A stretch of DNA of 33,591 nucleotides from Phycisphaerales bacterium (GCA_011053195.1 DRKT01000043.1:1-33591), one strand, 5' to 3'; shown: positions 6,076 through 27,416, counted from the stretch's first letter. Made by a program: numbers and translations. The notes: generated by a model from the sequence alone, not told the origin.

Positions 6076-7278
6076 ATGAGTGTGAGTTATTGGCGCCGAG
6101 AGCGTTCTCCAGTGCGTCAGCCATCGTGTGATGTCGTGATCGTCGGCGGCGGGATCACCGGGCTGACTTCGGCGTATGAACTCTGTCAGCGGGGCATGCG
6201 TGTTGCCATTCTCGAACGTCACACCCTCGGCAGCGGAGCCTCGTCCCGCAATGCGGGCTACCTCATGCGGGGTATGGCCGAGAGCTATGCGCTCGTCTGC
6301 AACCATCTCGGCCGGGACACCGCCAAACTCGTCTGGCGGTTCACCGAAGAAAACCTGACCCTGCTGATCGAACGCTACAGCATCGACTCGCTCGACTCAT
6401 TCCATCGCAAGCCTTCCATCCTCGTCGCCATGTCGGACAGCGAAGCTGAGGAATTGGCCGATTCCGAGCGTTTGTTGTGCGAAGATGGTTTTGAGACGCA
6501 TCTTGTGCGCTCGGGAAGTGACTCGCTGTGGCGGTCGTTGCAGCCAACGCTCGCCCTGGTCAACCCGCACGATGCGGCATTGAACCCGTGGCAACTCGTT
6601 CAACGGCTCCGCGATGGGCTCATCAGCCGATTCGGCGACCTTGCCACGATCCATGAGAACAGCGAGGTCGTCGGGTTCCACCCGGACCCATCCGGCATCG
6701 TTGTCCGTACCGAGCGAAGCGAATACCCGTGCAACCGAGTGCTCGTGTGCACCAATGCCTGGGCGCAGGAGTTGCTGCCGGACCTGGGCGCCAGAATCAA
6801 ACCAAATCGAGGGCAAATGATGGCACTGCGTGCGCCCGGTGTTCGGCTTGATGCGTCGTATTACCTCAACCGTGGTTCCGAGTATCTGAGGCAAGCCGCC
6901 GACGGTTCCATCATCCTCGGCGGAAAGCGCACGCATCGAGAAGGCGAGGAGCAAACCGCCAGCGATGCCACCACGCCGGAGATCCAATCAGAACTCGAGC
7001 GGTACGCGAAGATGGTGCTGCAATGCGATTTCAAGGTCATCGCGCGATGGGCCGGCACGATGGGATTCTCACCCGATGGACTCCCAATCATCGCACGCGC
7101 GGACGCCCAGCCGGCCGAGGTGTGGTTCTGCGGCGGGCTGACCGGCCACGGCATGTCGCTCGGAGCGAAAACGGCCCAAGCTGCGGTCCAAACCATGCTC
7201 GGGGAGATCGAAAGCCCGTTCCCGGCCGATCGGTTCCGCGAGAAAGAGCCACCTGCCGGACTTGAACCGGCGACCTGA
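6076..7278 (+). CDS. FAD-dependent oxidoreductase (DAO/glycine oxidase-like)
   Basis: N-terminal Rossmann 'CDVVIVGGGITGLTSAYELCQRG', 'GSGASSRNAGYL', C-terminal 'WAGTMGFSPDGLPIIA...FCGGLTGHGMSLGAKTA'; SD GGAGG upstream; stop codon lies inside antisense tRNA-Thr. Confidence 0.88.
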   Translation: MSVSYWRRERSPVRQPSCDVVIVGGGITGLTSAYELCQRGMRVAILERHTLGSGASSRNAGYLMRGMAESYALVCNHLGRDTAKLVWRFTEENLTLLIERYSIDSLDSFHRKPSILVAMSDSEAEELADSERLLCEDGFETHLVRSGSDSLWRSLQPTLALVNPHDAALNPWQLVQRLRDGLISRFGDLATIHENSEVVGFHPDPSGIVVRTERSEYPCNRVLVCTNAWAQELLPDLGARIKPNRGQMMALRAPGVRLDASYYLNRGSEYLRQAADGSIILGGKRTHREGEEQTASDATTPEIQSELERYAKMVLQCDFKVIARWAGTMGFSPDGLPIIARADAQPAEVWFCGGLTGHGMSLGAKTAQAAVQTMLGEIESPFPADRFREKEPPAGLEPAT

Positions 7279-7319
7279 GCTTTACGAAAGCTCCGCTCTA
7301 CCAACTGAGCTAAGGTGGC
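7247..7319 (-). tRNA. tRNA-Thr (CGT)
   Basis: Reverse complement GCCACCTTAGCTCAGTTGGTAGAGCGGAGCTTTCGTAAAGCTCAGGTCGCCGGTTCAAGTCCGGCAGGTGGCT; anticodon loop TTCGTAA with CGT. Confidence 0.95.
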
Positions 7320-20797: not shown

Positions 20798-22858
20798 ATG
20801 AGCGCCATTCCTTCCAACGTGAGTCGATCGCCGACCCTGCTGGTCAGCCAGATCCAACTGGCCAACCTGCGACGAACCAACCTCGGCCTCTTCGAGGCGC
20901 AGTCACAGCTCGCCACGGGGCGCTCGATCCTGCGCCCGAGCGACAACCCGGTCAACACCGCGGCCATCGCCACGCTCGACGACAGCATCGAACGATCCGC
21001 CCAGCGCCTGCGCAACATCGACCAGGCCGACGGCAACCTCGCACTCATCGAAACAAGCCTCGCCGAGACCGGCGACCTGCTCCTCTCGGCCAAGCAGATC
21101 GCCAGCACGCAGGTCAACATCGGTTCGACCGCGACGGAACGAGCAAACCAGGCGGCCGTCGTCAACTCCCTGATCGACGGGCTCGTCTCGCAGATGAATC
21201 GAAAGTCCGTGGACAACTACCTATTCGGGGGCAGTAAAACGGGCACGCCTCCCTTCGAAGCGTTCGGCTCCGGCTTCATCTACCGCGGCGAGTTCGACAA
21301 CCTCACCACCGACATCAACCTCGGACGAAGCGTTCCCGTCACCATGGTCGGACTCAAATCGCTCGGCCAGAATCTGCGCAAGGTGCAGGGCGATGTGGAT
21401 CTCAACCCCACGCTCACGCCGGAAACATTGCTCAAAGACCTCAGCGGAGCTCGAGGACTCGGCATCTCCACCGGCACCATCCAGATGCAATTCGATGGCG
21501 GGGCAACCGTCGAAGTCGATCTCACATCCGCCGACACGGTCGAAGACATCACCACTCGCCTCGAGGCTGCCATTACCCAGTATGAATCGGCCAACAGCGT
21601 CAGCATCCTCGGGCCCGGCGGGGTCTCAACCAACGGCGAAAGCATCTCCATCGATGTCCTGCCGGCATCGACCGGCGCCGATCCGCTGCTGAGCTTCTCA
21701 GACATCGGCAACGGCACAACCGCCGAGGATCTTGGGCTTACAACTCCAGCCGGAGCTTCATTTGAAGCCACCCAGCCCGATGGTGTGGCCCTGGCGCCGA
21801 GGCTCACCATGCGCTCCACCATCGCCTCGCTCGCCGGGCTGACCGCAAGCCTCGATCAGATCGTCATCAACAACGGCGGCCGGCGCGCCCAGATCGACCT
21901 CTCACAGGCCGAGACCATCGAAGACCTGCGCAACGCCATTCAGGCCGCCGACATCGGTGTTCGGCTGGTCATTAACGATCAGGGCACCGGCATCGACATC
22001 GTCAATCTGGTCTCGGCGGATCCGGATGAATCGCTCACCATCGAGGAAGTGCCCGGCGGATCACGTTCTGCGGAATTGCTCGGCGTCAGAACCCTCAAAT
22101 CCTCGACTCGCGTCGACACGTTCAACGACGGCATCGGTGTCCGCATCGCCACAGGCGGAACCGATCCCGTCACCGGTGCCGCCGACCCGACCCTTGATAT
22201 CGACTTCGCTGTCAATCTTGGCGATGGATCATCGTTCACCGTCAACCTCCGGCCGCAGGACATCGTCACGACCGCGGACGTGATCAACCGGATCAATTCC
22301 GAGGCTGCTGCCCAGGGCATCGCAGCGACCGACTTTCAGGCCGGGCTCGGCGACGGGACCAACGGCATCCAGTTCACGCAGAACGCGTCCTTCACCGGGG
22401 CGATCTCGCTCGAACAGCGGAACAACTCCACCGCGATGTTCGATCTTGGGCTGGGACAGGACGACTCGGCATACGACACAGCCAGCGCAACTCTTACCGG
22501 TGCAGATCCTGCGCCTGTCGTCGCCGACACCGTATTTACCCGCCTTTTACAGATCAGAAAGGCCCTTTCGGCGGACGACACGGCTGGCATCACCCTTGCT
22601 GGGTCCAAGCTGGAAGATGTCATCGATTCGGTCGCACAGTCGCGCGGCCTGGTCGGGAGCTACAGCAAGCGTCTCGCGACAGCGCGAACGCGGGAAGAGG
22701 ATGTCAACGTTATGGAGCAGAGTTTCAGGAGCGAACTTCGAGACCTGGACTTTGCGCAGGCATCGACACGGCTCAATCAGTTGCAGACCCAGCTCCAGGC
22801 CGGGCTGCAGAGCATGTCGATCGTTTCACAGTTGAGTTTGCTCGACTTTCTCGGATAG
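20798..22858 (+). CDS. flgL: Large flagellar hook-associated protein FlgL-like (HAP3)
   Basis: 'QLANLRRTNLGLFEAQSQLATGRSILRPSDNPVNTAAIATLDDSI', 'KSVDNYLFGGSKTGTPPF', C-terminal flagellin-like 'FRSELRDLDFAQASTRLNQLQTQLQAGLQSMSIVSQLSLLDFLG'. Confidence 0.88.
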   Translation: MSAIPSNVSRSPTLLVSQIQLANLRRTNLGLFEAQSQLATGRSILRPSDNPVNTAAIATLDDSIERSAQRLRNIDQADGNLALIETSLAETGDLLLSAKQIASTQVNIGSTATERANQAAVVNSLIDGLVSQMNRKSVDNYLFGGSKTGTPPFEAFGSGFIYRGEFDNLTTDINLGRSVPVTMVGLKSLGQNLRKVQGDVDLNPTLTPETLLKDLSGARGLGISTGTIQMQFDGGATVEVDLTSADTVEDITTRLEAAITQYESANSVSILGPGGVSTNGESISIDVLPASTGADPLLSFSDIGNGTTAEDLGLTTPAGASFEATQPDGVALAPRLTMRSTIASLAGLTASLDQIVINNGGRRAQIDLSQAETIEDLRNAIQAADIGVRLVINDQGTGIDIVNLVSADPDESLTIEEVPGGSRSAELLGVRTLKSSTRVDTFNDGIGVRIATGGTDPVTGAADPTLDIDFAVNLGDGSSFTVNLRPQDIVTTADVINRINSEAAAQGIAATDFQAGLGDGTNGIQFTQNASFTGAISLEQRNNSTAMFDLGLGQDDSAYDTASATLTGADPAPVVADTVFTRLLQIRKALSADDTAGITLAGSKLEDVIDSVAQSRGLVGSYSKRLATARTREEDVNVMEQSFRSELRDLDFAQASTRLNQLQTQLQAGLQSMSIVSQLSLLDFLG

Positions 22859-22868
22859 GAACGAGGAA
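22847..22868 (+). promoter_or_regulatory. Candidate CsrA-binding hairpin 1 of the fliW leader
   Basis: TTTCTCG-gatAGGAa-CGAGGAA, 7-bp stem (one G-U), loop contains AGGA; overlaps flgL stop. Confidence 0.35.
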
Positions 22869-22928
22869 TCGGGCTGGTCAGAAAGAAGGCTCGCCGTCTC
22901 GGCCACGGCAAGCTGGACAGGAGTACGA

Positions 22929-22945
22929 CCGGCGAAGGACGCCGG
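22929..22945 (+). promoter_or_regulatory. Candidate CsrA-binding hairpin 2 of the fliW leader
   Basis: CCGGCG-AAGGA-CGCCGG, perfect 6-bp stem with AAGGA loop. Confidence 0.55.
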
Positions 22946-22985
22946 GAAGGCAGGATAGCCAAGGCCGAAGGTCAAGGACGATCGC

Positions 22986-23432
22986 ATGGAAGTCCATACG
23001 TCACGCTTCGGGGTGATCGAAATCGCGGAGGACCGCGTCATCACCTTCTCGAAGGGCCTACTCGGGTTCCCCTCGATGTGTCGGTTTTGCCTGTTGCAAC
23101 CGGGCGACGATGCAATGTTTTTCTGGTTGCAATGTCTCGACGATCCTGATCTCGCATTCGTGATCACGGATCCGACCATGTTCTATCCGGATTACACCGT
23201 TCCGATCCGGGCGGAACAGATGGAGGCATTGAACCTCGAAAAACTCGAGGATGCTCAGGTATTCGTTATTGTGAACAAGGTTGAGCAGCAGCTGACGGGC
23301 AATCTCCAGGGTCCGTTGGTCGTCAACACGCTAGACAGAACGGGCGAACAGCTCGTCCTGGCCGACAAGCGGTGGACGACCAGACAACCGCTGATGAAGG
23401 TAGGAAAGGCCGCCAACGCGGCCACTGCCTGA
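22986..23432 (+). CDS. fliW: Flagellar assembly factor FliW (CsrA antagonist)
   Basis: '[33 protein letters not shown]...[26 protein letters not shown]'; adjacent csrA; SD AAGGA. Confidence 0.93.
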
Positions 23433-23451
23433 TTCATCGGTTTGTGCGGAG

Positions 23452-23471
23452 CGTCTGGAAGGATCCAGACG
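23452..23471 (+). promoter_or_regulatory. Candidate CsrA-binding hairpin in the csrA leader
   Basis: CGTCTGGA-AGGA-TCCAGACG, perfect 8-bp stem with an AGGA tetraloop. Confidence 0.65.
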
Positions 23472-23556
23472 AATGCAGGGCACGGAGGTCGCTCGGCCAG
23501 TGGCCGGGTACCCGAACGGAGATGTTTCCGGGCGGGTAATGGAAGGAGCCTATCGA

Positions 23557-23943
23557 ATGCTGGTGCTTTCACGTCAGCGCGATGAAACGATCATGATCGG
23601 CGATGAGATCGAGATCACGATCGTCGATATCCGGGGGGACAAGGTTCGCCTCGGGATCACCGCGCCGACCCACATCGCCGTACACCGAAAAGAGGTGTAC
23701 GACGCGATCAAAAGAGAAAATGAACAGGCAGCGCGCTTCAAGCGCGACGACCTGGGGCCGTTGGGTTCGGGCGCGGCCCCGAAATCCGTCCGTCCGGGGA
23801 GAACCGCAAGGGCGTCATCCCTCGCTTCCCCGGCCGGTTCTGGTGGCGTCAAACCCACTGCAAGCAACGGAGTCCATCCAAAGCGCATCGAGATTAACTC
23901 GACAAGCTCACACGACTCATCACCAACGCGGACGCCGGCCTGA
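23557..23943 (+). CDS. csrA: Carbon storage regulator CsrA with C-terminal extension
   Basis: Canonical start '[55 protein letters not shown]' followed by a long low-complexity tail; SD GGAAGGAG; ORF-track start 23473 is too early. Confidence 0.95.
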
Positions 23944-23957
23944 AAAGGCACGCCCCG

Positions 23958-23984
23958 CATCGCTCGCGAGGAACGCGAGTGATG
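23958..23984 (+). promoter_or_regulatory. Candidate CsrA-binding hairpin in the fliC1 leader
   Basis: CATCGCTCGCG-AGGAA-CGCGAGTGATG, 11-bp stem (one G-U) with AGGAA loop; second GGA site in SD (TCACGGAGGAT, 24000-24010). Confidence 0.65.
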
Positions 23985-24015
23985 GTGATCGAACGTCAGT
24001 CACGGAGGATCGACA

Positions 24016-25566
24016 ATGGGTCGAATCAATACAAATGTCCCGAGCCTCATCGCTCAATCTCACCTGAACCGAAGCAATGAAGACTTGCAGGTCAGGCTCG
24101 AAAGGCTCTCCACCGGTCTGCGCCTCAATAGAGGCAAAGACGACCCGGCGGGCCTGATCATCTCAGAGCGAATCCGCTCGGATCTCGAAGGTGTCTCGCA
24201 AGGCATCAAGAACGCACAGCGGGCAAGCTCCGTCATCGCCACAACCGAGGGCGCCCTCACCGAAGTGTCAGATCTGCTCAACTCGATCAAGGCATTGATC
24301 GTCGAATCCGCCAACACCGGCGGCAGCAGCGCCGAGGAACGGGCCGCAAACCAGCTCCAGATCGACTCGGCCATCGAGTCCATCACGAGAATCGCAAACA
24401 CCGCAACATTCGGCGGGCTCCGACTCCTCGACGGATCGCAGGACTACATCCTCTCAGGCGTACGAAGCTCCGCCATCAGCAAAGCGCAGGTCTACAGCGC
24501 CAACTTCGTCGGCGCCAACGCCATCCAGGTCGATGTCACCGTCCTCGCTTCCGCGCAGCTCGGGGCCCTCTATCTCTCCGGCTTCAACAGCGGAACCGGT
24601 GGACAGGTCACCAGCACCACAACGCTCCGAATCGCCGGTGCACTCGGCGTCGGAACCATCGAGGTCGTCTCGGGAACCACCCTGGCCAACCTCGTCAACG
24701 CTGTCAATAACCTCACCTCCGTCACAGGTGTCTCGGCCTCACTCATCAGCGCCACCGACGCCACCTCAGGCGTCGTCTTCAACACCACGACCTATGGCTC
24801 GGACTCGTTTGTATCCGTCGAACGCATCGGCGGACCAAGCGACCCGGCTGAGGACACTGTTAAAATCTACAAGGCTGCGGATACATACCAGAACGGCACC
24901 GGATCGATCTGGACCGCCTCCAGCGCCAACCTCACCATCTCCAACAGAGACGAGGGACGGGACATCACAGCCCTGGTCAATGGCACACTCGCCGACAGCT
25001 CCGGGCTCGAACTCTCCATCTTCTCGGGAAGCCTCTCGCTTCAGATGGAGGTCCACGAGGATCTGGCAACCACACTCAACGGCACAACGTCCTTCAATAT
25101 CACCGGGGGCGGCGCCCTCTTCCAACTCGGGCCGGAAGTGAACGCGCTCCAGCAAACCTCGATCGGTATCCAATCGGTTGCCTCGGAAAACCTCGGCGGG
25201 AGCCTCGTTGACGGCCGGCTCAACTTCCTGAACTCGCTCAAGAGCGGCCAGAACAACGATCTCAGGTCAAGCGCCGGACGAAACGACTTCAGCCAAGCCA
25301 GCGATATCGTGGCCACGGCCATCGACGAGGTTTCAATCCTGCGCGGGCGGCTCGGGGCATTCGAGCGAAACACGCTCAACACCAATGTCCGCTCGCTCCA
25401 GGCTGCATTTGAGAACCTCACGTCAAGTGCCTCGGTCATCCGGGATGCCGATTTCGCGGTCGAAACAAGCAACCTGACCCGCGCTCAGATCCTGACGCAG
25501 GCCAGTACAAGCGTGCTCAGTCTGGCCAACCAGCAGGCCAGCCAGGTGCTCTCGCTGCTCGGCTAA
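24016..25566 (+). CDS. fliC: Flagellin 1
   Basis: 'MGRINTNVPSLIAQSHLNRSNEDLQVRLERLSTGLRLNRGKDDPAGLIISERIRSD', C-terminal 'SASVIRDADFAVETSNLTRAQILTQASTSVLSLANQQASQVLSLLG'. Confidence 0.96.
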   Translation: MGRINTNVPSLIAQSHLNRSNEDLQVRLERLSTGLRLNRGKDDPAGLIISERIRSDLEGVSQGIKNAQRASSVIATTEGALTEVSDLLNSIKALIVESANTGGSSAEERAANQLQIDSAIESITRIANTATFGGLRLLDGSQDYILSGVRSSAISKAQVYSANFVGANAIQVDVTVLASAQLGALYLSGFNSGTGGQVTSTTTLRIAGALGVGTIEVVSGTTLANLVNAVNNLTSVTGVSASLISATDATSGVVFNTTTYGSDSFVSVERIGGPSDPAEDTVKIYKAADTYQNGTGSIWTASSANLTISNRDEGRDITALVNGTLADSSGLELSIFSGSLSLQMEVHEDLATTLNGTTSFNITGGGALFQLGPEVNALQQTSIGIQSVASENLGGSLVDGRLNFLNSLKSGQNNDLRSSAGRNDFSQASDIVATAIDEVSILRGRLGAFERNTLNTNVRSLQAAFENLTSSASVIRDADFAVETSNLTRAQILTQASTSVLSLANQQASQVLSLLG

Positions 25567-25610
25567 GCCCGATAACACCCCGGAATCGGGCAAATACCCC
25601 CTAAATCGGA

Positions 25611-25640
25611 GAGCCGGTGGATCATTCCACCGGCTCTTTT
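25611..25640 (+). terminator. Rho-independent terminator after flagellin 1
   Basis: GAGCCGGTGGA-tcat-TCCACCGGCTC followed by TTTTCTT (11-bp perfect stem). Confidence 0.92.
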
Positions 25641-25719
25641 CTTATTGGATGTCGGAAATTTGACTCTTGTGAACACGTCCGACTGAACACCCCCACCCTG
25701 ACCGCCGATGCCGCTACGT

Positions 25720-25744
25720 CCCCGGATGATGGATCGTCCAGGGG
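25720..25744 (+). promoter_or_regulatory. Candidate CsrA-binding hairpin upstream of flagellin 2
   Basis: CCCCGGATGA-TGGA-TCGTCC(a)GGGG, 10-bp stem with one G-U and one bulged A, loop TGGA. Confidence 0.4.
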
Positions 25745-25789
25745 CGGGGTGGCCCGGCACGGTGCTGGGCATGTGCTCCGGATCGGAAT

Positions 25790-25824
25790 GTTTCGAGGGT
25801 CGCACAACGCGACCGGCACGAAAC
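25790..25824 (+). promoter_or_regulatory. Two-tier stem-loop in the fliC2 upstream region
   Basis: GTTTCG-ag-GGTCGC-acaac-GCGACC-ggca-CGAAAC: two 6-bp perfect helices separated by an internal loop, 59 nt before the ATG. Confidence 0.5.
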
Positions 25825-25883
25825 CTCCGGCGACGAGCTTTGCAAAAGGGCAAGGGCCCAAACGTTCACGGAGGATTCATCGA

Positions 25884-27416
25884 ATGAGTCGCATCAATAC
25901 CAATGTTTCATCTCTTGTTGCTCAGCGCGTGCTGGGTCAGAACAACTTCGGGCTGAACAATTCGCTCGAACGATTGAGCACAGGTCTTCGGATCAACCGG
26001 GGCAAGGACGACCCGGCCGGTCTGATCGCCTCGGAAAACCTGCGTTCGGAGATCAAGGCCGTCAGCGCCGCGATCAACAACGCCGAACGGGCCGAACGAG
26101 TCGTCAACATCGCTGAGGGTGGTCTCTCGGAAGTTTCGGGCCTCTTGGTCGAGCTTCAGGGTCTCATCACCAACTCGGCCAACACCGCCGGCCTGAGTGA
26201 TGCTGAGAAAAACGCAAACCAGCTCCAGATCGACTCGATCCTGCAAACCATCGACCGCGTTGCCGACCAGACCTCGTTCCAGGGTTCCAAGCTGCTCAAC
26301 GGCAACCTGGACTTCCGGGTCTCCAGCCAGGCTTCCGGCATCGACGACCTCAGGGTCAACGGGGCCAAGTTCGACGGCGACAGCCTCGACGTCAACGTCC
26401 TCGTCACGCAGTCTGCCCAGCGCGGCGGCCTGTTCCTCTCCCTCGGTGCAACGAGTCTGAACCTCGGCGGCACCGGCGGCACCGATGGCACCACCTCGAC
26501 GTTCGTCGTCGAGATCACCGGTTCGCTCGGAAGCCGTGAGTTCAGCTTCGCCTCGGGTACCACGCTTGCTCAGGTCAAAGATACCATCAACACCTTCTCC
26601 GACGTGCTCGGCGTTTCGGCCGTCACCTCGGGCACCGGCATCCGACTTCAGTCGACCGAGTTCGGCGAAGACGCCTTCACCACCGTCAAGGTCATTGACG
26701 ATGCCCAGCAGGCCGGTGGCGTGTACAACCTCACCTCGACCAACTTCGCTTCGGCGGACACATCCTCGGGTGTTGCGTACAGCGCCACATCGGCGGCAAA
26801 CGGCATCCGTGATGAAGGTCAGGACATCGGCGCCACCATCAACGGCATTGTCGCCACGACCGATGGCAAAACCGCCAAGATCGACACCGACTTCCTCAAC
26901 CTTCAGGTCACACTGGATACCAGCACCTCCCAGACACTCGGTGCCGTCGGCACGGGCAGAACCTTTGCCATCGCCGGAGGTGGTGCGACCTTCCAGCTCG
27001 GCGGCAAGGTCGACATCCAGTCCAAGGTGACCCTCGGTGTCTCGGAAGTCGCCATCCGCAAGCTCGGCTCCAATGCCGCAGGCGGGTTCCTTGATGACCT
27101 CAGCTCCGGCAAGAGCTTCAATGTGGTCGATGGTGATCTCACCGCCGCCCAGAAGGTCGTGTCCGAAGCCATCGAGCAGGTCTCGACCCTGCGAGGCCGC
27201 CTCGGTGCGTTCCAGCGGAACACACTCGGAGCGACCCGTCGAAGCCTGGGCGTCAACCTCGAGAACAGCTCGGCTGCCGAGTCCGTCATCCGTGACACCG
27301 ACTTCGCATCCGAGACCGCGGCCCTCACACGGTCGCAGATCCTGGTCTCCGCAGCGACCAACACCCTGTCGCTGGCCAACAGCCAGCCGCAGACCGCGCT
27401 GCAGCTCCTCGGCTAA
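25884..27416 (+). CDS. fliC: Flagellin 2
   Basis: 'MSRINTNVSSLVAQRVLGQNNFGLNNSLERLSTGLRINRGKDDPAGLIASENLRSEIKAVSAAINNAERAERVVNIAEGGLSEVS', C-terminal 'SVIRDTDFASETAALTRSQILVSAATNTLSLANSQPQTALQLLG'; SD GGAGGA; ORF-track start 25617 is too early. Confidence 0.96.
   Translation: MSRINTNVSSLVAQRVLGQNNFGLNNSLERLSTGLRINRGKDDPAGLIASENLRSEIKAVSAAINNAERAERVVNIAEGGLSEVSGLLVELQGLITNSANTAGLSDAEKNANQLQIDSILQTIDRVADQTSFQGSKLLNGNLDFRVSSQASGIDDLRVNGAKFDGDSLDVNVLVTQSAQRGGLFLSLGATSLNLGGTGGTDGTTSTFVVEITGSLGSREFSFASGTTLAQVKDTINTFSDVLGVSAVTSGTGIRLQSTEFGEDAFTTVKVIDDAQQAGGVYNLTSTNFASADTSSGVAYSATSAANGIRDEGQDIGATINGIVATTDGKTAKIDTDFLNLQVTLDTSTSQTLGAVGTGRTFAIAGGGATFQLGGKVDIQSKVTLGVSEVAIRKLGSNAAGGFLDDLSSGKSFNVVDGDLTAAQKVVSEAIEQVSTLRGRLGAFQRNTLGATRRSLGVNLENSSAAESVIRDTDFASETAALTRSQILVSAATNTLSLANSQPQTALQLLG

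Follow-up and report, generated by a model that had tools for sequence, protein, structure and literature searches.

We propose that a flagellin locus in Phycisphaerales is governed by a series of CsrA-type RNA hairpins. In a 33,591-nucleotide stretch of DNA from a Phycisphaerales bacterium (GCA_011053195.1, DRKT01000043.1:1-33591; hereafter the window), each of the four consecutive genes fliW, csrA, fliC1 and fliC2 is preceded by a leader that carries GGA in the loop of a hairpin. The most likely reading, on comparative evidence, is that these leaders form a cis-acting, CsrA-binding series that would make the FliW-CsrA-flagellin system an autoregulated circuit, and the arrangement suggests that control of regulator, antagonist and targets acts in each case on the gene's own mRNA. 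The anatomy of the leaders, their conservation and covariation, and the presence of intact protein partners are observed directly. A preliminary description of the window had named one fliW, one csrA and two flagellin genes, and Pfam matches upheld these identities:

22986-23432, plus strand: fliW, 148 amino acids, CsrA antagonist and flagellin assembly factor (Pfam FliW, 5.8e-35; 5dmb_A, 1.4e-18)
23557-23943, plus strand: csrA, 128 amino acids, conserved 60-residue core and variable tail (Pfam CsrA, 2.6e-24; 5dmb_D)
24016-25566, plus strand: fliC1, flagellin, 516 amino acids (Pfam Flagellin_N, 8.9e-35)
25884-27416, plus strand: fliC2, flagellin, 510 amino acids (Pfam Flagellin_N, 2.3e-30)

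The window's genome (2.75 Mb, 257 contigs) encodes a FliW whose nearest relatives come from metagenome-assembled genomes named Phycisphaera or Phycisphaeraceae. FliW was detected in 118 of 120 genomes of the window's family (Phycisphaerales, Planctomycetota), and our family comparison covers 117 loci plus the window (118 loci), with 96-115 leaders per gene and 74 genera spanned. The fliW and csrA genes adjoin a flagellin gene, in the order fliW-csrA-flagellin(s), in 108 of these 118 loci, and several of the exceptions end at contig edges. The RNA-binding residues of CsrA are retained, with L4, R6, V42, R44 and N55 invariant across 109 family sequences, and FliW and CsrA of the window both match chains in the structure of the FliW-CsrA complex, 5dmb. 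Gene neighborhood and proteins alike are those expected of a FliW-CsrA-flagellin switch.

The four GGA-loop hairpins of the preliminary description are all present where it placed them and with the sequences it gave, and the Shine-Dalgarno sequence of each of the four genes does contain GGA. Those of the last three genes are as follows:

23452-23471, plus strand: csrA leader hairpin CGTCTGGA-AGGA-TCCAGACG; drawn as a hexaloop, CGTCTGG-AAGGAT-CCAGACG (ANGGAN)
23543-23548, plus strand: csrA Shine-Dalgarno sequence AAGGAG
23958-23984, plus strand: fliC1 leader hairpin CATCGCTCGCG-AGGAA-CGCGAGTGATG, 11-base-pair stem, from sequence and folding, with compensatory changes within the genus
24002-24009, plus strand: fliC1 Shine-Dalgarno sequence ACGGAGGA, in the family the loop of CAATC-ACGGAG-GATTG
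25720-25744, plus strand: fliC2 leader hairpin CCCCGGATGA-TGGA-TCGTCCaGGGG; core GGATGA-TGGA-TCGTCC at 25724-25739, lengthened by CCCC/GGGG
25868-25875, plus strand: fliC2 Shine-Dalgarno sequence ACGGAGGA

In ensemble folding, the probability of finding the GGA within a hairpin loop is 0.88 (fliW), 1.0 (csrA), 1.0 (fliC1) and 0.99 (fliC2). Among 24 gene leaders tested in the window, none besides these four has a strong ANGGA loop.

Across the family, an upstream GGA falls in a hairpin loop (probability at least 0.5) in 75% of fliW, 63% of csrA (n=114), 33% of fliC1 and 69% of fliC2 leaders. A dinucleotide-shuffle control, proposed with the preliminary description and run here family-wide, gave 24%, 14%, 10% and 17%, respectively; by the same measure, reverse complements gave 1-3% and 157 leaders of other genes in one same-genus genome gave 5.7%. 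The folding programs carry no knowledge of the CsrA consensus, and A stands at position -2 in 86% (csrA) and 77% (fliC2) of loop GGAs versus 19% of non-loop GGAs; in this the loop GGAs match the known CsrA consensus. Counted without folding, ANGGAN hexaloops closed by at least 5 base pairs number 44/115 upstream in csrA, 95/168 in fliC1 with the Shine-Dalgarno sequence included and 41/160 upstream in fliC2, as against about 1% for other hexamers flanked by at least 5 complementary bases (odds ratios for ANGGAN of 62, 232 and 28, respectively). The corresponding counts on reverse complements are 0/33, 0/11 and 1/100. For csrA itself, hairpins of this type thus exceed chance, as CsrA autoregulation would predict. 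These controls bear on the simplest alternative, namely that GC-rich leaders with purine-rich ribosome sites yield GGA loops by chance or for mRNA stability. The leaders are GC-rich, the Shine-Dalgarno sequence always supplies a GGA, and shuffled leaders do reach 10-24%, compared with 33-75% in real ones; however, this explanation, already disfavored, is very improbable given the 6% in other genes' leaders, the near absence of such loops from reverse complements, the A at -2 and odds ratios of 28-232.

The hairpins are also kept in homologous loci, with compensatory changes in their stems. Neither loss of the hairpins from homologous loci nor equal frequency in shuffled leaders, two outcomes named in the preliminary description as refuting it, was therefore observed. 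In the csrA leader, the GGA hairpin lies at varying distance, and within the window's genus the stem sequence is replaced while the hairpin and its GGA loop remain. For fliC1, the Shine-Dalgarno sequence is itself the loop of CAATC-ACGGAG-GATTG in 88 of 108 genomes, frequently with a sixth pair. In the window's genus, where this hairpin is weak, the GGA is carried by a strong hairpin about 35 nucleotides upstream of the Shine-Dalgarno sequence, which shows compensatory changes between species. A flagellin leader in this locus combines a CsrA-type GGA site at the Shine-Dalgarno sequence with an upstream hairpin. The fliC2 leader carries its hairpin far upstream, mostly with an ACGGA loop, and an upstream GGA-loop hairpin with a stem of at least 5 base pairs occurs in 85 of 96 genomes.

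The fliW leader proved to be more elaborate. The hairpin reported for it in the preliminary description is present, as P3, but it is only part of a larger element, and a pseudoknot and a CsrB-type repeat had been overlooked; CsrA-type hairpins on all four leaders are otherwise well supported. The parts of the element in the window are:

22870-22988, plus strand: fliW leader RNA element, beginning within the gap between flgL and fliW and reaching the start codon of fliW (match to covariance model R1, 53.5 bits, E 3.6e-10; single match in the genome)
22893-22909, plus strand: P1 hairpin GCCGT-CTCGGCC-ACGGC, whose loop gives the 5' strand of the pseudoknot
22899-22904, plus strand: pseudoknot 5' strand TCGGCC, in the P1 loop, pairing with 22963-22968
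22916-22926, plus strand: P2 equivalent GACAGGAGTAC, a putative CsrA site of the CAGGA(U/C/A)G type
22929-22945, plus strand: P3 hairpin CCGGCG-AAGGA-CGCCGG
22949-22960, plus strand: possible third site GGC-AGGATA-GCC, loop probability 0.45; a CCAGGATGG or CCAAGGAGTGG motif stands at the equivalent place in other families
22963-22968, plus strand: pseudoknot 3' strand GGCCGA, complementary to the P1 loop and 5 nucleotides before the fliW Shine-Dalgarno sequence
22974-22978, plus strand: fliW Shine-Dalgarno sequence AAGGA

In the family, P2 reads GAC-AGGAY-GTC and so contains the CsrB repeat, for which PMC7652899 gives the consensus CAGGA(U/A/C)G. The spacing from the GGA of P2 to that of P3 is mostly 16-17 nucleotides, inside the 10-63 nucleotides that a single CsrA dimer is reported to bridge (PMC7652899) and near the 18-21 nucleotides considered for CsrA dimers (PMC4894983, PMC7652899). 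In other families of the order (loci L195-L213), P3 is separated from the pseudoknot strand by an extra motif, ATCC-AGGAT-GGAT or CCA-AGGAG-TGG, which is likely a third CsrA-type hairpin.

Covariance model R1 was built from a hand-specified structure on a 53-sequence alignment, with the pseudoknot excluded. It matches 91 of 100 family loci and more among the remainder, for about 105 of 115 family leaders overall, and 57 of 151 genomes order-wide; genomes with a match have a single site. We examined 26 loci from these hits, all in families outside the window's own apart from family member L172. In 25 of them the element stands directly ahead of fliW (the exception being L174), and csrA and flagellin lie downstream in all 25. 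Neither the L174 hit nor the hit beyond the order in L215 (phage-like open reading frame) lies ahead of fliW, and both were discarded; the genomes sampled from other orders gave no true match. A search of the window and six relatives against Rfam returned nothing relevant, and the fliW element matches no Rfam family above the gathering score. RNAalifold, applied to a sequence-only alignment of all 115 fliW leaders, gave no structure, probably owing to misalignment and the pseudoknot.

Covariation supports both the hairpins and the pseudoknot. In 91 sequences, 84.6% (P1), 98.7% (P2) and 85.1% (P3) of cells are paired and P1 and P3 show two-sided changes at all 6 pairs each, counts that lean towards the structure since the alignment was fitted to P1-P3; the pseudoknot, which was not fitted, has 93.0% of cells paired and two-sided changes at 5 of 6 pairs. 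Compensated variants of the pseudoknot include TCGGTC/GACCGA, TCGACC/GGTCGA, CTGACC/GGTCAG and CCGGCT/AGCCGG. Across 23 matches from beyond the family, in families unused for the model and with L174 among them, it is 90.2% paired. An anchor-free test with automatic choice of P1, noisy in that other hairpins were often picked, yielded 12 7-mer complements where the controls yielded 2 and 1. Pairing in the outer helix P0 is weak (60%). P1 is followed by one unpaired loop base, a 6-base-pair second stem and a third loop of about 60 nucleotides holding P2 and P3. A hairpin, a 1-nucleotide first loop and a second stem constitute the standard H-type form, and here P1 and the pseudoknot are both conserved with compensatory changes.

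Such a structure could have a reader other than CsrA. Leader pseudoknots that respond to ligands or to ribosomal proteins are common, and P1 and the pseudoknot would not require CsrA for their formation; a metabolite, FliW or another protein might read the element, the GGA loops being incidental. We regard this as quite improbable. Setting aside the pseudoknotted loop, conservation among unpaired bases falls on the GGA motifs and the CAGGAYG loop, with no other conserved unpaired core seen, and the element precedes the gene of the CsrA antagonist.

Several observations weigh against a CsrA-binding leader series. About one third of csrA leaders are without a clear GGA hairpin, and the fliC1 Shine-Dalgarno hairpin has only 3 base pairs in the window's genus. 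The P2 stem GAC/GTC, although conserved in the family, is broken in that genus (GAC/TAC in the window), and genus g24 (L140, L141, L144) keeps the gene order without the fliW element. In the minimum-energy fold of the window, the two pseudoknot strands join in a nested helix incompatible with P1, and because of this we infer the coexistence of P1 and the pseudoknot only from their joint conservation. Relatedness of the sequences inflates p-values, overstating their independence, and term searches of the open-access literature turned up no measurements of binding or expression for a planctomycete CsrA. Finally, the fliC2 hairpin of the window lies 139-142 nucleotides from the GGAs of the Shine-Dalgarno sequence, too far for simple bridging. 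Because this distance exceeds the reported range, blocking of the Shine-Dalgarno sequence, as put forward in the preliminary description, is not a direct consequence for fliC2, and its hairpin may serve in tethering, mRNA protection or titration.

Titration could in principle be the chief function of these leaders, that of fliW above all, making them CsrA sponges rather than regulators of their own genes. The CsrB-type repeat and tandem GGA hairpins of the fliW leader, together with the remoteness of the fliC2 hairpin, would suit this role, and CsrA titration by the flaA leader is established in Campylobacter jejuni (PMC4894983). We nevertheless consider it unlikely, as the fliW element abuts the Shine-Dalgarno sequence, with a pseudoknot strand ending just short of it, and the fliC1 Shine-Dalgarno sequence is itself a loop in the family; both features fit cis control. 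Each leader offers just about 2-4 sites, and sponge and cis roles are compatible. A pattern search, which is no real test for csrB-like small RNAs, found no array of three CAGGANG repeats in the window's genome, with scattered matches elsewhere.

For the autoregulated circuit that we favor, we propose the following mechanism. A CsrA dimer would tether to a leader hairpin and, if the ribosome site lies close enough, reach across to it and block it. In the fliW leader, the third loop of the pseudoknot holds the putative CsrA-binding hairpins (two, or three in some genomes), and we infer that CsrA binding there favors the pseudoknotted, ribosome-occluding form. Free CsrA would repress flagellin, csrA itself and the antagonist FliW. 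As secretion drains flagellin, freed FliW should remove CsrA, and the four messages would open together. The sign of regulation at fliW is predicted rather than read from sequence, which is compatible with either: repression of fliW by CsrA would establish mutual inhibition, and activation would establish a homeostatic loop. More tentatively, and with less than even expectation, the fliW leader could represent a new class of protein-gated RNA switch, in which CsrA on tandem CsrB-like hairpins locks a ribosome-blocking pseudoknot and thereby represses the protein that antagonizes it. As FliW would in turn remove CsrA, a double-negative loop could then give switch-like flagellin expression across Phycisphaerales, replacing the fliW-csrA coupling of Bacillus subtilis.

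Transcription signals in the window are as follows:

25608-25639, plus strand: intrinsic terminator after fliC1, 14-base-pair stem and T run
25684-25710, plus strand: possible sigma-28-type promoter TGAA-N16-GCCGATG for fliC2, suggestive only

The sigma-28-like site, which precedes the fliC2 hairpin, is kept in same-genus genomes and occurs in 12 of 98 fliC2 leaders and in 0 of the other three leaders. A sigma-70 scan found nothing, and sigma-28 and sigma-54 patterns across the whole window are at chance; the predicted transcript map follows from the terminators and this weak site. From fliW to fliC2, forward terminator-like sites occur only after fliC1 and after fliC2, with none at the hairpins, and a role of the hairpins as attenuators was set aside. 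The window also holds two tRNA genes on the minus strand (371-443 and 7247-7319).

Some further features concern CsrA. Past its conserved core, the protein has a long, variable C-terminal tail (window positions 23737-23943; family lengths 97-153 amino acids). A second, divergent CsrA-family protein (52 bits) is encoded elsewhere in the window's genome (G000:C197:13285-13449, locus L002), and a similar low-scoring paralog occurs in nearly all of 40 family genomes checked. In G022, a genome of the same family that is 94% complete, there is no FliW match and the sole CsrA is the divergent paralog, which suggests that fliW and canonical csrA were lost jointly.

FliW-CsrA systems have been investigated in a handful of bacteria, and the flagellin message is their best-known control point. 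Here a whole planctomycete order carries CsrA-type sites on regulator, antagonist and flagellins together; the leader of the antagonist gene is, in addition, a conserved pseudoknot that Rfam lacks. Planctomycetes have been named among lineages possibly using FliW against CsrA (PMC4682653); term searches of the open-access literature returned neither a study of CsrA and FliW in a planctomycete nor, in the passages returned, a report of CsrA controlling fliW. If our proposal is correct, the antagonist itself is under CsrA control, which would change the expected dynamics and might permit bistability. The element would also provide a defined RNA for studying CsrA action through a pseudoknot, and more than 100 naturally occurring variants on which the CsrA recognition code could be tested.

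The locus resembles the hag switch of B. subtilis in its neighboring fliW and csrA, its flagellin with a GGA-containing Shine-Dalgarno sequence and upstream GGA site, and its homology to the solved FliW-CsrA complex. Whereas csrA translation is coupled to fliW in B. subtilis (PMC6529632), the genes here are each preceded by a separate structured leader, in gaps of about 125-150 nucleotides, with CsrA-type hairpins also on fliW and csrA and a pseudoknot on fliW. The flaA leader of C. jejuni has two GGA hairpins about 21 nucleotides apart and FliW as antagonist (PMC4894983); the double hairpin in a flagellar leader and the antagonist are shared, but there the double hairpin is on flagellin, whereas here it is on fliW and joined to a pseudoknot. 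In glgC-type repression in Escherichia coli, CsrA is tethered by the GGA of a hairpin and from there bridges to the Shine-Dalgarno sequence (PMC7652899). The same tethering and bridging, as in csrA autoregulation there, are predicted here on other genes, where the antagonist is expected to be FliW and not CsrB/CsrC. With sponge small RNAs of the CsrB/RsmZ type, the fliW leader shares CAGGA(U/A/C)G loops in tandem hairpins. CsrB binds about 18 CsrA subunits; the leader, unlike such a multi-site small RNA, is a cis mRNA element with few sites and is not a sponge small RNA of this kind. Like H-type pseudoknot leaders near ribosome sites, it pairs a hairpin loop to the bases immediately 5' of the Shine-Dalgarno sequence and has a first loop of 1 nucleotide; unlike them in general, it holds CsrA-type hairpins within a long third loop and has no counterpart in Rfam.

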